Shown here: piece after piece, positions 2,355 through 42,367 of the stretch
Position numbering within the stretch: position 1 is the stretch's first letter
Layout of the letters: each line of letters starts with the position of its first letter
NCBI GenBank assembly: GCA_933207985.1
Contig: OW240916.1
Location: 313,635,579-313,699,578 of the forward strand
Direction of reading: 5' to 3'
Length of the DNA stretch: 64,000 bases
From: Pelobates cultripes
Taxonomy: Eukaryota; Chordata; Amphibia; Anura; Pelobatidae
Program-made: the position numbers and the translations under genes
Notes under the pieces: model-generated
What the model saw: the letters and a program-made list of their open reading frames with translations, nothing else
Database searches by the model: none
Told to the model about the DNA's origin: nothing

Positions 2355-4558
2355 GTACCGTCACCGTGTACACAGAGAGCAACCTAGACCGTCACCATGT
2401 ACACAGAGACCGTCACCATGTACACAGAGACACATAGACCGTCACCGTGTACACAGAGACACATAGACCGTCACCGTGTACACAGAGACACATAGACCGT
2501 CACCGTGTACACAGAGACACACATAGACCGTCACCATGTACACAGAGAGACACATAGACCGTCACCATGTACAGAGAGACACATAGACCGTCACCATGTA
2601 CACAGAGACACATAGACCGTCACCATGTACACAGAGACACATAGACCGTCACCATGTACACAGAGAGACACATAGACCGTCACCATGTACACAGAGACAC
2701 ATAGACCGTCACCATGTACACAGAGAGACACATAGACCGTCACCATGTACACAGAGAGACATAGACCGTCACCATGTACACAGAGACACATAGACCGTCA
2801 CCATGTACACAGAGAGACACCTATACCATCACCGTGTACACAGAGAGATATAGACCGTCACCATGTACACAGAGAGCCACCTAGACCGTCACCATGTACA
2901 CAGAGAGCCACCTAGACCGTCACCGTGTACACAGAGCCACCTAGACCGTCACCGTGTACACAGAGACACATAGACCGTCACCATGTACACAGAGAGACAT
3001 AGACCGTCACCATGTACACAGAGAGACATAGACCGTCACCATGTACATAGAGACACATAGACCGTCACCATGTACACAGAGAGACACATAGACCGTCACC
3101 ATGTACACAGAGAGATATAGACCGTCACCATGTACACAGAGAGCCACCTAGACCGTCACCATGTACACAGAGAGCCACCTAGACCGTCACCGTGTACACA
3201 GAGCCACCTAGACCGTCACCGTGTACACAGAGACACATAGACCGTCACCGTGTACACAGAGACACATAGACCGTCACCGTGTACACAGAGACACATAGGC
3301 CGTCACCGTGTACACAGAGACACATAGGCCGTCACCGTGTACACAGAGACACATAGACCGTCACCATGTACACAGAGAGACACATAGACCGTCACCATGT
3401 ACACAGAGACACATAGACCGTCACCATGTACACAGAGACACATAGACCGTCACCATGTACACAGAGACACCTAGACCGTCACCATGTACACAGAGACACC
3501 TAGACCGTCACCATGTACACAGAGAGACACATAGACCGTCACCATGTACACAGAGAGACACATAGACCCGTCACCATGTACACAGAGAGCCACCTAGACC
3601 GTCACCATGTACACAGAGAACCCTAGACCGTCACCATGTACACAGAGAGCAACCTACCGTCACCATGTACAGAGGCACATAGACCGTCACCATGTACACA
3701 GAGCCACATAGACCGTCACCATGTACACAGAGACACATAGACCGTCACCATGTACACAGAGACACATAGACCGTCACCATGTACACGAGACACATGACCG
3801 TCACCATGTACACAGAGAGCAACCTAGACCGTCACCATGTACACAGAGAGCAACCTAGACCGTCACCATGTACACAGAGAGCAACCTAGACCGTCACCAT
3901 GTACACAGAGAGCCACATAGACCGTCACCATGTACACAGAGAGCAACCTAGACCGTCACCATGTACACAGAGAGCAACCTAGACCGTCACCTGTACACAG
4001 AGACACCCAGACCGTCACCATGTACACAGAGAGCAACCTAGACCGTCACCATGTACACAGAGAGCAACCTAGACCGTCACCATGTACACAGAGAGACACC
4101 TAGACCGTCACCATGTACACAGAGAGACACCTAGACCGTCACCATGTACACAGAGACACCTAGACCGTCACCATGTACACAGAGAGACACATAGACCGTC
4201 ACCATGTACACAGAGAGACACATAGACCGTCACCATGTACACAGAGAGCCACCTAGACCGTCACCATGTACACAGAGAGCAACCTAGACCGTCACCATGT
4301 ACACAGAGAGCAACCTAGACCGTCACCATGTACACAGAGAGCAACCTAGACCGTCACCATGTACACAGAGAGACACCTAGACCGTCACCATGTACACAGA
4401 GAGACACCTAGACCGTCACCATGTACACAGAGACACCTAGACCGTCACCATGTACACAGAGAGACACATAGACCGTCACCATGTACACAGAGAGACACAT
4501 AGACCGTCACCATGTACACAGAGAGACACATAGACCGTCACCATGTACACAGAGAGCC
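2355..4558. repeat. Minisatellite of 29-31-bp units in PJA2 intron 1
   Basis: About 70 head-to-tail copies share the core gaccgtcaccatgtacacag followed by a variable tail: gagacacata, gagagacacata, gagagcaaccta, gagagccaccta or gagacaccta. Variants are arranged in blocks that recur (about 2845-2990 with 3105-3250, and about 4030-4260 with 4280-4510), showing duplication of multi-unit blocks. A cgtgtac variant is concentrated near the left side. The array begins at the putative exon 1 donor. ORFs crossing it on both strands come from the absence of stops in the unit and are not genes. Confidence 0.95.
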
Positions 4559-13718: not shown

Positions 13719-15110
13719 TTTTTTTTTTTTAAATATCGTCTCCTCCTTTGCTGTGTTGATTCCCTTTATGTATTTAAATGTTTCTATCATATCCCCCTTG
13801 TCTCATCTTTCCTTCAAGCTATACATGTTAAGTTCCTTTAACCTTTCCTTGTAAGTTTTATCCCGCAATCCATGAACCAGTTTAGTAATCCTTCTCCAAA
13901 CTCTTTAAAGTATCAATATCCTCCTGGAGATACGGTCTCCAGTACTGTGTACAATACTCCAAGTGAGGTCTTACCAGTTCTGCACAATGGCATGAGTACT
14001 TCCCTCTTTCTACTGCTAATACCTCTCCCTATACAACCAAGCATTCTGCTCGCATTTCCTGCTGCTCTATTACATTGTCATCAGAAATAATCACCCCTAA
14101 ATCCCTTTCCTCAGATGTTGAGGTTAGGACTCTATCAAATATTCTGTACTCTGCCCTTGGGATTTTACATCCAAGATGCATTATCTTGCACTTATCCACA
14201 TTAAATGTCAGTTGCCACAACTCTGACCATTTTTCTAGTTTACCTAAATCATTTGCCATTTGGCTTATCCCTCCTGGAACATCAACCCTGTTACATATTT
14301 TAGTATCCTCAGCAAAAAGACATACCTTACCATCAAGACCTTCTGCAATATCACTAATAAAAATATTAAAGAGAATGGATCCAAGTACAGATCCCTGAGG
14401 TACCCCACTGGTGACAAGCCTGTGCTTCGATAATACTCCATTGACTACAACCCTCTGTTGCCTGTCACTCAGCCACTGCCTTACCCATTCAACAATATTG
14501 GAATCCAAACTTAAAGATTGCAGTTTATTGATAAGCCTTCTATGTGCAACAGTGTCTAAAGCCTTACTGAAATCTAGGTAAGCAATGTTTACTGCACCAC
14601 CATGATCTATTATTTTAGTTACCCAATCAAAAAAACCAATAAGATTAGTTTGGCATGATCTCCCTGAAGTAAACCCGTGTTGTCTCTGATCTTGAAATCC
14701 ATGTGTTTTTAGATATTCAACAATCCTATCCTTTAACATGGTTTCCATTACTTTCCCCACTACTAAAGTAAGGCTTACTGGCCTATAGTTGCAGACTCCT
14801 CCCTACTACCTTTCTCGTGAATGGGCACAACATTCGCAACTTCCAATCTCCTGGGACTACTCCTGTTAACAATGATTGGTTAAATAAATCTGTTAATGGT
14901 TTTGCTAGTACACTACTAAGCTCTTTTAATAGCTTTGGGTGTATTCCATCAGGACCCATTGACTTATTTGTCTTTACTTTTGATAGTTGAAATAGAACCT
15001 CTTCCTCTGTAAACTCACATGTAACAAATTACTAATTTGTTTTCATCTGTAAATACTGAACAAAAATATTAATTGAGGCAATCAGCTAGACCTTTATCCT
15101 CTTTTTTTTT
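13719..15110 (-). pseudogene. CR1-clade LINE, reverse transcriptase remnant
   Basis: Read on the minus strand from about 15010 downwards, the sequence encodes the finger part of a CR1-type reverse transcriptase (KTNKSMGPDGIHPKLLKEL, later VPGDWK), then after frame damage near 14760-14840 a 243-codon ORF (14029-14760). That ORF carries [21 protein letters not shown] and FAEDTKICN. The usual catalytic FADD reads FAED, its first aspartate replaced by glutamate (codon at 14308-14310). The 3' part (IETFKYIKGIN at 13767-13792) runs into the T-tract beside the gap. It is a dead insertion inside a PJA2 intron, opposite in strand to the gene. The related 3' end at 39650-40537 confirms the family. Confidence 0.9.
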
Positions 15111-32034: not shown

Positions 32035-33490
32035 CAGTGATGGAAAAAAGTATTTGATTCCCTGCTGATTTTTAATGTTTGCCCACTGATAATTTTAATG
32101 GTAGCTGTATTTTAACAGCGAGAGACAGAATAACAAAAAAAAATCCAGAAAAACGCATGTCAAAAAAGTTATAAATTGATTTGCATGTCAATAAGTAAAA
32201 TAAGTATTTGATCCTCCTATCAATCAGCAAAATTTCTGGCTCCGAAGTGTCTTTTATACAGGTAACGTGCTGAGATTAGGGGCACTCTCTTAAAAGGAGT
32301 GCTCCTAATCTCAGCACGTTACCTCTGTAAAAGACACCTGTTCACATAAGCAATCAATCAAGCAGATTCCAAACCATGGCCAAGACCAAAGAGCTGTCCA
32401 AGGATGTCAGGAACAAGATTGTAGACCTACACAAGGCATGAATGGGCTTCAAGACTATCGCCAAGCAGCTTGGTGTGATTATTTGCACATGGAAGGAACA
32501 CAAAATAACTGTCAGTCTCCCTCGGTCTGGTTCTCCATGCAAGATCTCACATCGTGGAGTTTCAATGATCATGAGAACAGTGAGGAATCAGCCCAGAACT
32601 ACACAGGAGGAGGATCTTGTTAATGATCTCAATGCAGCTGAGACTATAGTCCCCAAGAAAACAATTGGTAACACACTACTCCGCGAAGGACTGAAATCCA
32701 GCAGCGCCCACAAGTTCCCCCTGCTCAAGAAAGCGCATGTACAGGTCTGAAGTTTGCCAATGAACATCTGAATTATTCAGAAGAGAACTGGATGAAAGTG
32801 TTGTGGTCAGAGGAGACCAAAATCAAGCTCTTTGGTCTCACCTCACCATGTTTGGAGGAGGAGGGATGCTGCCTCTGACCCCAAGAACACCATCCCCACC
32901 ACCAAACATGGAAGTGGAAACATTATGCTTTGGGGGTGTTTTTCTGCTAAGGGGACAGGACACCGCATCAAAGGGACGATGGACGGGGTCATGTACAGTC
33001 AAATCTTGGATGAGAACCTCCTTCCCTCAGCCAGGGCATTGAAAATGGGTCGTGGATGGGTATTCCAGCATGACAATGACCCAAAACACACAGCCAAGGC
33101 AACAAAGGAGTGGCTCAAGAAGAAGCACATTAAGGTCCTGGAGTGGTCTAGCCAGTCTCCAGACCTTAATCCCGTAGAAAATCTGTGGAGGGAGCTGAAG
33201 GTTCGAGTTGCCAAACATCATCGTCGAAACCTTAATGACTTGGAGAGGATCTGCAAAGAGGAGTGGAACAAAATGCCTCCTGAGATGTGTGCAAACTTGG
33301 CCAACTACAAGAAACGTCTGACCTCTGCACGTCTGTGACTGCCAACAAGGGTTTTGCCACCAAGTACTAAGGGGTTGAAGGGGTCAAATTCTTATTTCAC
33401 TCATTGACATGCAAATCAATTTATAACTTATTTGACATGCTTTTTTCTGGATTTTCTTTTTGTTATTCTGTCTGTCACTATTAAAATTAC
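32035..33490 (+). mobile_element. Tc1/mariner transposon copy in the last PJA2 intron
   Basis: The left end, cagtgatggaaaaaagtatt, follows a TA dinucleotide and matches the terminus of the copy at 56887-61690. The right terminal repeat is truncated near 33490. Between 32255 and 32340 lies an inverted repeat (ctgagattaggggcac / gtgctcctaatctcag). The transposase gene occupies about 32376-33338 but has frameshifts and stops. This Tc1 lineage is known from fishes, frogs and lampreys and is thought to have moved between species. Confidence 0.9.
32376..33338 (+). pseudogene. Tc1 transposase pseudogene
   Basis: The start region [12 protein letters not shown] is at 32376. A stop after [13 protein letters not shown], then a frame change, breaks the DNA-binding half. 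The catalytic half is open from 32832 to 33338 and reads [20 protein letters not shown], then [15 protein letters not shown] (second acidic residue) and [13 protein letters not shown] (final glutamate of the DD34E triad). The first catalytic residue, normally D in WSDET, is E (codon 32810-32812). Dead by several independent lesions. Confidence 0.88.
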
Positions 33491-39649: not shown

Positions 39650-40537
39650 ACCATTTAGGTTGATGTTCCAGGAGGGATAAGCCAAATGACAAATGATTTA
39701 GGTAAACTAGAAAAATGGTCAGAATTGTGGCAACTGACATTTAATGTGGATAAGTGCAAGATAATGCATCTTGGGCGTAAAAACCCAAGGGCAGAGTACA
39801 GAATATTTGATAGAGTCTAACCTCAACATATGAGGAAAGGGATTTAGGGGTGATTATTTCTGATGACTTAAAGGTAGGCAGACAATGTAATAGAGCAGCA
39901 GGAAATGCTAGCAGAATGCTTGGTTGTATAGGGAGAGGTATTAGCAGTAGAAAGAGGGAAGTGCTCATGCCATTGTACAGAACACTGGTGAGACCTCACT
40001 TGGAGTATTGTACACAGTACTGGAGACCGTATCTTCAGAAGGATATTGATACCTTAGAGAGGGTTCAGAGAAGGGCTACTAAACTGGTTCATGGATTGCG
40101 GGATAAAACTTACCAGGAAAGGTTAAAGGATCTTAACATGTATAGCTTGGAGGAAAGACGAGACAGGGGGGATATGATAGAAACATTTAAATATATAAAG
40201 GGAATCAACACAGTAAAGGAGGAGACTATATTTAAAAGAAGAAAAACTATCACAACAAGAGGACATAGTCTTAAATTAGAGGGACAAAGGTTTAAAAATA
40301 ATATCAGGAAGTATTACTTTACTGAGAGGGTAGTGGATGCATGGAATAGCCTTCCAGCTGAAGTGGTAGAGGTTAACACAGTAAAAGGAGTTTAAGCATG
40401 CGTGGGATAGGCATAAGGCTATCCTAACTATAAGATAAGGCTAGGGACTAATGAAAGTATTTAGAAAATTGGGCAGACTAGATGGGCCGAATGGTTCTTA
40501 TCTGCCGTCACATTCTATGTTTCTATGTTTCTATGAA
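39650..40537 (+). mobile_element. CR1-clade LINE 3' end
   Basis: The 3' part of a CR1 ORF2: CKIMHLG then, after a frameshift near 39825, a 181-codon ORF (39850-40395) with RPHLEYCTQYWRPYLQKDID, LVHGLRDKTYQERLKDLN and AWNSLPAEVVE. The untranslated tail has gatgggccgaatggttctta and ends in tttctatg repeats at 40515-40537, the classical CR1 3' signature. Same family as the minus-strand copy at 13719-15110. Confidence 0.92.
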
Positions 40538-41257: not shown

Positions 41258-41465
41258 ACACTTAAGGAGATAAAAAAACAAGTAGCAAGAGAGGTGAGAA
41301 CAGACGACAGTTCAATTAGCTTGCCCTATGGTGGGTCCCCACTCAGATCTCAAGCTCAACTTGTGCCATTACAGAGAGAATAAATCTGAAACATATCAGA
41401 CTGGTCCCACCCGTACAGGCAGTCCAGATCCAAAATGCCATCAAGTTCCCTCTGCACAAGAGATA

Positions 41466-41520
41466 CAGCAATCCCAGACAATCGTTTCAACCTTGTAAAG
41501 TATCATCAGTGAGGTATAGC
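41466..41520 (-). ncRNA. Hammerhead ribozyme-like motif, unit 1
   Basis: Minus strand, in order: stem I strand CUCA; core CUGAUGA; stem II ACUU and AAGGU arms; core GAAA; self-complementary octamer ACGAUUGU (first A is that of GAAA); C17; stem I strand UGGG. Stem I pairs CUCA with UGGG (one G-U). UC as cleavage dinucleotide is canonical. The pair closing stem II next to the core is U-U, which is unusual. Confidence 0.65.
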
Positions 41521-41784
41521 CAATATCCCTCTAGGCACCATGAGCAAAGAGTCCATGTCTGAATTGCCCTTTAAACTTGAGAGAAAAAACAAGTAACGAG
41601 AGGTGAGAACGGACAACAGCTCAATTAGCCTGCCCTTTGGTGGGTCCCCACTCAGATCTCAAGCTGGTTTTAGCTCATCTAGTGACATTACAGAGAGAGC
41701 ATATCTGAAGCATATAAGACTGGTCCCACCCATACTGGTAGTCCAGATACAAAATGTTAGCAGGTTCCCTCTGCACAAGAGATA

Positions 41785-41839
41785 CAGCAACCCCAGATGA
41801 TCATTTCAACCTTATAAGGTATCATCAGTGAGGTATAGC
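41785..41839 (-). ncRNA. Hammerhead ribozyme-like motif, unit 2
   Basis: Same layout as unit 1: CUGAUGA, stem II ACCU/AGGU closed by a UAUA loop, GAAA, octamer AUGAUCAU (a perfect palindrome), C17, UGGG. Compared with unit 1 the octamer differs at several positions, yet remains self-complementary. The stem I strand CUCA is kept. Confidence 0.65.
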
Positions 41840-42096
41840 CAATATCCATCTAGGCACCGTGAGCAAGAGGTCCACGTCTGGAATTCCCTTTAAACTTAAG
41901 GAGAGAAAAAACAAGTAGCAAGAGAGACGAGAACGGACAACAGCTCAATTAGCCTGCTCTTCGGTGGGTCCCCGCTCAGATCTCAAGCTGGTTTAAGCCA
42001 TTACAGAGAGAACAATCTGAAGCATATCAAACTGGTCCCACCCGTACGGGCAGTCCAGATCCGAAATGCCAGCAAGTTCCCTCTGCACAAGAGATA

Positions 42097-42151
42097 CAGC
42101 AATCCCAGACGATTGTTTCAACCTTGTAAGGTATCATCAGTGAAGTATAGC
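42097..42151 (-). ncRNA. Hammerhead ribozyme-like motif, unit 3
   Basis: CUGAUGA, stem II ACCU/AGGU closed by UACA, GAAA, octamer ACAAUCGU, C17, UGGG. The octamer has one A-C mismatch with itself but is the exact complement of the unit 1 octamer. The stem I strand reads UUCA rather than CUCA. Confidence 0.6.
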
Positions 42152-42180
42152 GAATATCCCTCTAGGCACTGTGAGCAAAC

Positions 42181-42262
42181 TTGTTTTTCTCTCCTTAAGT
42201 TTAAAGGGCAATCCAGACATGGACCCCTTGCTAATGGTGCCTAGAGGGATATTGGCTATACC
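42181..42262 (+). repeat. Inverted partial unit of the array
   Basis: The string cttgtttttctctccttaag continues through gtttaaagggcaatccagac to gagggatattggctatacc, the reverse complement of the 41525-41590 part of the units. It stops just where the stem I/CUGAUGA core would begin. Confidence 0.8.
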
Positions 42263-42367
42263 CAGGGGTCAAGTCCTGGGGAATATAGTGTGAGAACTCT
42301 CCCAAGATTCCCCCTTCCCTCCAACCCCCCCAAAAATAATATACACTCATATATATATATATATATA
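42263..42367. other. Spacer with TA microsatellite
   Basis: C-rich stretch followed by (ta)n at 42349-42369 abutting the DIRS-order element. Confidence 0.6.

Follow-up and report, generated by a model that had tools for sequence, protein, structure and literature searches.

Insertion scars of a hammerhead-bearing repeat family in Pelobates cultripes point to a non-coding retrozyme, probably inserted by Penelope-like machinery

In Pelobates cultripes, a tandem array within a 64,000-nucleotide stretch of the genome (the whole stretch analysed, referred to here as the window) carries repeated hammerhead-like motifs, which raises the question of what kind of element this is and how its copies are inserted. 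From its letters alone, the array had been read as tandem units of about 315 bp, each with a minus-strand hammerhead, and proposed as a candidate retrozyme. TRF reports it as one array, at 41260-42179 (period 319, 2.9 copies), and each of its three minus-sense units of about 315 bp contains a type I hammerhead, in agreement with this sequence-only reading. The array and its ribozymes lie as follows:

41260 to 42178, minus strand: sense arm of 2.9 tandem units of 312-319 bp (TRF and alignment)
42093 to 42158, minus strand: type I hammerhead whose stem I is extended (Rfam matches its core at 42102-42146; the predicted cut follows C17 at 42108)
41781 to 41846, minus strand: type I hammerhead (the predicted cut follows C17 at 41796)
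41462 to 41527, minus strand: type I hammerhead (the predicted cut follows C17 at 41477)

On the minus strand, the CTGATGA cores start at 42140, 41828 and 41509, and the predicted C17 positions (42108, 41796 and 41477) reproduce the proposed spacing of 312 and 319 bp between cleavage sites. Each unit runs in the order stem I, CUGAUGA, a 4-bp stem II with a U.U mismatch at its base, GAAA, octamer, UC and stem I; a conserved core and three helices, with stem I open, make this a hammerhead of type I. The octamers of the three units are ACAATCGT, ATGATCAT and ACGATTGT. Their majority is the perfect palindrome ACGATCGT, and the differences between units are transitions only, of the kind left by CpG decay. 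The earlier statement that the array has no open reading frame does not hold literally, as stop-to-stop frames are present (for example, one of 114 amino acids at 41900-42244).

All 13 core positions are invariant across the three units, which is weak evidence alone because sliding the same pattern of positions along the units gave equal invariance in 16 of 271 cases. A relaxed hammerhead descriptor, applied to both strands, matched the window three times in all, at exactly the three units; since these are mutual copies and the descriptor was written after the finding was seen, the matches count as one event. Any match to the descriptor occurred in 8 of 7538 dinucleotide shuffles. A 61-base scan with the Rfam model Hammerhead_1 (RF00163) gave a match at 42102-42146 on the minus strand (21.8 bits, E 0.0011), and a sister copy, L058, gave 32.0 bits (E 4.9e-4 in 63.5 kb, and 1.2e-6 for a short stretch), being the one match among the 20 loci scanned of 60. 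The covariance model thus sided with the hammerhead reading in one window unit and in L058, but both scores lie below the gathering score of 34 bits, the whole-window Rfam scan returned nothing at the gathering threshold, and focused scans (E<=10) over 1.5 kb and over 76 bases of unit 2 missed the hammerhead. The Rfam model, as its alignment shows, likewise has a stem III formed by an octamer that lacks a loop. Across 98 copies, one of 22 base pairs covaries clearly above shuffles (12 of 500 as good), while the other 21 say little; this is an outer pair, seen as G-U, G-C and A-U. Covariation in the three window units alone is uninformative. Taken together, the shuffles, the genome copies and the Rfam match of L058 make a chance origin of the hammerhead unlikely. 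A search of viral and prokaryotic collections with the exact core pattern gave no matches in either. Circular folding of two window units gave z values of -2.33 and 0.05 (65% and 62% of bases paired), and stable folding was dropped as evidence because just one of the two lies below shuffles.

Other genomic copies that keep the core, a check proposed with the sequence-only reading, are present in the thousands: the core pattern with up to three mismatches occurs at 2346 places (1180 plus 1166) in the 3.09-Gb host genome, against none (0 plus 0) for the reversed pattern. A unit query gave at least 103 matches across contigs C1-C12 (40 of 4965 first-look candidates were scored), and the near-full-length matches, excluding the window itself, are 77-89% identical. 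Loci L001-L030, fetched by the unit query, contain 51 full hammerheads, and the core is intact in 41 of these; the sample includes the window's own hammerheads and one duplicate locus. Because copies decay neutrally, this conservation is not taken as proof of selection. Copies were collected by the unit query or the hammerhead pattern, and short hammerhead-less copies are therefore absent from the collection. At non-CpG sites the window units diverge by 4.3-5.4% from the family majority (family mean 5.4%, 216 segments). The family-majority stem I, which exceeds that of most window units, consists of ACCUCA/UGGGGU, an internal loop and then GAUAU-U-GGC/GCYGUAUC. Units are more similar within arms (0.919, 76 pairs) than between loci (0.901, 4000 pairs).

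After removal of 12 duplicates from 100 loci, 88 insertions were analysed. When left and right flanks were compared, target duplications scoring at least 9 were found in 30 of 87 insertions versus 12 of 2000 mismatched flank pairs, and at the stricter score of at least 12 in 17 of 87 versus 0 of 2000; this flank comparison gave no clear duplication for the other 57 of 87. The duplications are 9-17 bp long with a mode of 14, and the 30 duplicated stretches are richer in AT (69.5%) than random flank pieces (61.8%; 8 of 2000 as high). Thus, the element is dispersed rather than satellite. Animal non-LTR retrozymes consist of tandem type I hammerhead units of 150-450 bp, in dimers to multimers, and the units here are of this kind, although some insertions carry about one unit; the high dispersed copy number and the target duplications of more than 4 bp, where present, also fit. 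Animal retrozymes are described as having a GC content below 45% in a figure legend and below 50% in the text of the same report (PMC7229834). The window array, at 45.4% (two units at 47.1% and 44.8%), satisfies the second figure and sits at the edge of the first. Given the hammerhead match and the thousands of dispersed core copies, the proposed retrozyme identity is supported as the best reading, and the element is read as a non-autonomous, non-coding animal retrozyme, one more family of an already known kind.

The ends of the insertions carry information about how they were made. With unit positions (u) numbered from the cleavage site, 63 of the 92 outward 3' ends in the first 69 insertions fall at u211-220. 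Twelve of the remaining 29 fall at u171-200, several of these being type B and C tails (two of the three tail types, A, B and C), which align poorly, and 17 lie elsewhere. The 46 5' ends in the same 69 insertions are scattered, with nine at u201-210. Insertions in one orientation have their aligned end at u205-222 in 35 of 46 cases and, in a later set that includes one duplicate, in 7 of 15. The preferred 3' end, a pyrimidine tract (CTTGTTTTTCTCTCC), is distinct from the cleavage site and lies downstream of it at a distance of 212-222 nt, and the boundaries set by target duplications agree with this fixed internal end. In the window, the tract is found at three places:

41260 to 41286, minus strand: 3' end of the insertion, a pyrimidine tract with the sense sequence GCTACTTGTTTTTTTATCTCCTTAAGT; putative start region of reverse transcription
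41570 to 41602, minus strand: further copy of this region, internal to the array, ACTTG-TTTTTTCTCT-CAAGT
41888 to 41920, minus strand: further copy of this region, internal to the array, ACTTG, a pyrimidine loop and TAAGT

In type A copies, a predicted hairpin has the tract in its loop, as in the 12 copies displayed out of 36 and in the window units; the 36 were chosen by a motif that itself includes the pairing bases. The hairpin stem is not kept in the type B copy L030.

The orientation of the arms is equally regular. Sixty of the 88 insertions are in a single orientation and at least 28 are two-armed with the hammerhead-sense 3' ends outward, while none of the 88 is two-armed with these ends inward; the two-armed counts are lower bounds because very short opposite arms, such as that of L050, escape alignment. 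Apparent arm disorder in three loci at first not classed as outward rests on five-edit matches, and one of the three, L050, is outward. The copy in the window is itself two-armed, with its sense 3' end at 41260 and its arms meeting at 42178/42179:

42179 to 42262, plus strand: opposite head-to-head arm of 84 bp that covers unit positions 202-283 and lacks a 3' end of its own
42263 to 42279, plus strand: start of unrelated sequence, CAGGGGTCAAGTCCTGG, which truncates the opposite arm (one copy in the window)

Because the right arm is cut off at 42262, the window insertion provides no target duplication. The truncating sequence, which we take to resemble a hAT terminal repeat, has no partner end in the window. 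Elsewhere in the window there are a minisatellite at 2401-4556 (31-bp unit, about 72 copies, 92% matches), a pair of segments at 13719-14287 and 39658-40245 that are 91.7% identical in opposite orientation, an open reading frame at 14029-14802 with a reverse-transcriptase domain, another at 39814-40395 without a Pfam match, and a DDE transposase remnant (PF13358) at 32796-33338 that is presumably Tc1/mariner-like.

The two arms of one insertion often differ in subfamily. Type B tails are found in the right arms of L030, L037 and L028, and type C tails in those of L025, L051 and L068; type C occurs at 276 genome places within three mismatches, some of them spaced as tandem arrays of their own. 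Tails could be read in 20 two-armed loci, a count that leaves out L050 (outward, one arm short) and L027 (five-edit matches). The arms belong to different subfamilies in 11 of the 20, with a B arm in five and a C arm in six, and nine are A/A. Arms of different subfamilies suggest that each target strand received the copy of a separate RNA. Different arm types occur together with a target duplication in L037, L051 and L068. Opposite arms are down to 75% identical, and their mean similarity (0.872) is lower than that between loci (0.901), partly as a matter of sampling, since type A queries fetched the loci and the other arm was not chosen. The inner junctions all differ among the 23 two-armed loci of the first set. 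At those of L051, L058 and L068, about 20-60 bp between the arms are not covered by the unit in the alignment. Target duplications flank 9 of 27 two-armed insertions, with the start tract at both outer ends in all nine; because of this, each of the nine looks like a single event in which both strands were primed at one RNA site. Of the 44 single arms that carry at least two tails, 37 are uniform in type. Five of the seven mixed arms rest on five-edit matches, and L003 and L006 may be real; in both, the sense arm has a type C-like tail (three edits) within an otherwise type A arm, perhaps reflecting template switching between RNAs.

Our preferred reading, to which we give a probability of about 0.68, is that a non-coding retrozyme is inserted by Penelope-like machinery with an internal start and priming on one or both strands. 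The family has a fixed internal end (63 of 92) and head-to-head products with both ends at the start site, both marks of such machinery. The Penelope protein of Anolis cleaves and extends both strands, unlike L1 and R2, and starts internally in a stem-loop, at the same site for both strands (PMC11167929). The internal starts and both-strand extension seen here match a Penelope-like element and not L1 or R2, hence this reading. In the putative order of steps, the type I hammerhead would cut multimeric RNA to units of about 320 nt, the short palindromic stem III probably favouring pairing of two units, as the axolotl and newt precedents suggest. The unit RNA, probably circular, would then be used by the enzyme of another element, most likely Penelope-like, which would cut the two target strands about 14 bp apart. 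Reverse transcription would start within the RNA, at the pyrimidine tract described above. Priming on one strand would give a single-orientation tandem insert, and priming on both strands from two separate RNAs a head-to-head insert. In vitro, hammerhead mutants of the Anolis element had no effect on insertion, and unprocessed RNA seemed to be the main substrate (PMC11167929); cleavage may therefore not be needed for insertion.

Alternatively, an ordinary LINE could move the retrozyme by target-primed reverse transcription, with twin priming making the opposite arms. LINE target duplications are of similar length to those found here (9-17 bp, mode 14), and the variable 5' ends are also as expected. 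Hammerhead repeats of Nematostella have duplications of 15 bp (PMC4918200). Against this stand the one site shared by both outer ends in all nine two-armed inserts with a duplication and the arm pairs of different subfamilies (11 of 20). In L1 twin priming, the second start falls randomly along one and the same RNA, and on balance we consider a LINE unlikely. A Penelope-like or other enzyme might instead prime on one strand only, the opposite arm arising by self-priming or by template switching onto the antisense strand. Head-to-head is the commonest arrangement of rotifer Penelope copies, which were explained in that study by self-priming on antisense RNA (PMC3846280); the type-mixed look of the sense arms of L003 and L006 would also indicate that switching happens. 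The frequent difference in subfamily between arms (11 of 20) argues for two templates rather than self-priming on antisense RNA, and in nine of nine cases the start tracts at both outer ends adjoin the target duplication, which makes such an origin very improbable. A plain satellite or minisatellite with a chance hammerhead would account for a three-unit array with sub-gathering Rfam scores and unexceptional core invariance, but is largely refuted by the L058 match (32.0 bits), the copies with target duplications on contigs C1-C12 and the rarity of descriptor matches in shuffled windows (8 of 7538), and we regard it as scarcely credible. Least credible is a DNA transposon or foldback element holding tandem hammerhead units, with the opposite arms as its inverted ends: an inverted structure is present in 28 of 88 insertions, but no opposite arm aligns in 60 of 88, duplication length varies, inner junctions differ in 23 of 23 two-armed loci and opposite arms are as low as 75% identical.

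Returning to Penelope-like insertion, the lengths of single-orientation copies give a hint of a circular template. Among 35 insertions that have the usual 3' end, 12 measure 300-352 bp, a cluster at one unit length, and the start of 10 lies at u186-218, a one-turn signal with a post hoc p of 0.002. In the prospective set, 2 of 7 did so (one single-turn and one two-turn), which is not significant (p 0.16). A bolder version is that retrozyme circles hijack Penelope-like enzymes through a mimic of the start site, that the complex delivers two independent RNAs of about 320 nt, one per cut strand, so that about one-third of inserts are head-to-head, and that one-turn copies are records of circular templates; we put this forward tentatively and would sooner doubt it than rely on it.

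Several known systems resemble the present family, as far as the accessible text of the reports goes. The axolotl retrozymes Rtz_331 and Rtz_353 (HHR_Amex1/2) are likewise tandem units, of 330-350 bp, with type I hammerheads and a short stem III, and HHR_Amex2 resembles the present hammerhead in a two-bp stem III with a tetraloop and in a basal U.U mismatch in helix II (PMC7229834); the likeness is one of description, and the text available does not describe a fixed internal end or two arms. The hammerhead of newt satellite 2 is alike in its units of about 330 bp, an internal loop extending helix I and dimeric action, but is described as satellite DNA (PMC6155905), whereas the present family is dispersed with target duplications. 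In Xenopus tropicalis, hammerheads also occur in interspersed repeats of a frog, and the accessible account only calls them repeat-associated (PMC3088659). Nematostella, too, has type I hammerheads in tandem repeats whose target duplications are large (15 bp); the text available gives no fixed end or two-armed structure for them (PMC4918200). Target duplications at animal hammerhead repeats are therefore already published (PMC4918200; PMC7229834), and in the open-licence literature, as accessible, we met no description of a fixed internal end or a two-armed insertion for retrozymes.

Penelope-like elements were proposed in 2020 as strong candidate movers of animal retrozymes (PMC7229834), and a 2024 review still names both LINEs and Penelope-like elements (PMC11722881). 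The insertion scars described here are a more interesting outcome than the retrozyme identification and hint at the type of enzyme behind animal retrozymes. The Penelope-like elements of Anolis (PAc; PMC11167929) and the rotifer Adineta (PMC3846280) have in common with this family tandem copies, an internal start, extension of both strands, head-to-head products and AT-rich targets, as described in the accessible parts of both reports. PAc also carries a hammerhead. Both elements encode a reverse transcriptase and an endonuclease, unlike the non-coding unit of about 320 bp. PAc starts in an AC-rich stem-loop (PMC11167929) and the present family in a U/C-rich tract; the rotifer target duplications are 8-10 bp long (PMC3846280) and those found here longer, at 9-17 bp. 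The scars define a start site and a product made on both strands, which opens the way to assays with purified Penelope protein.
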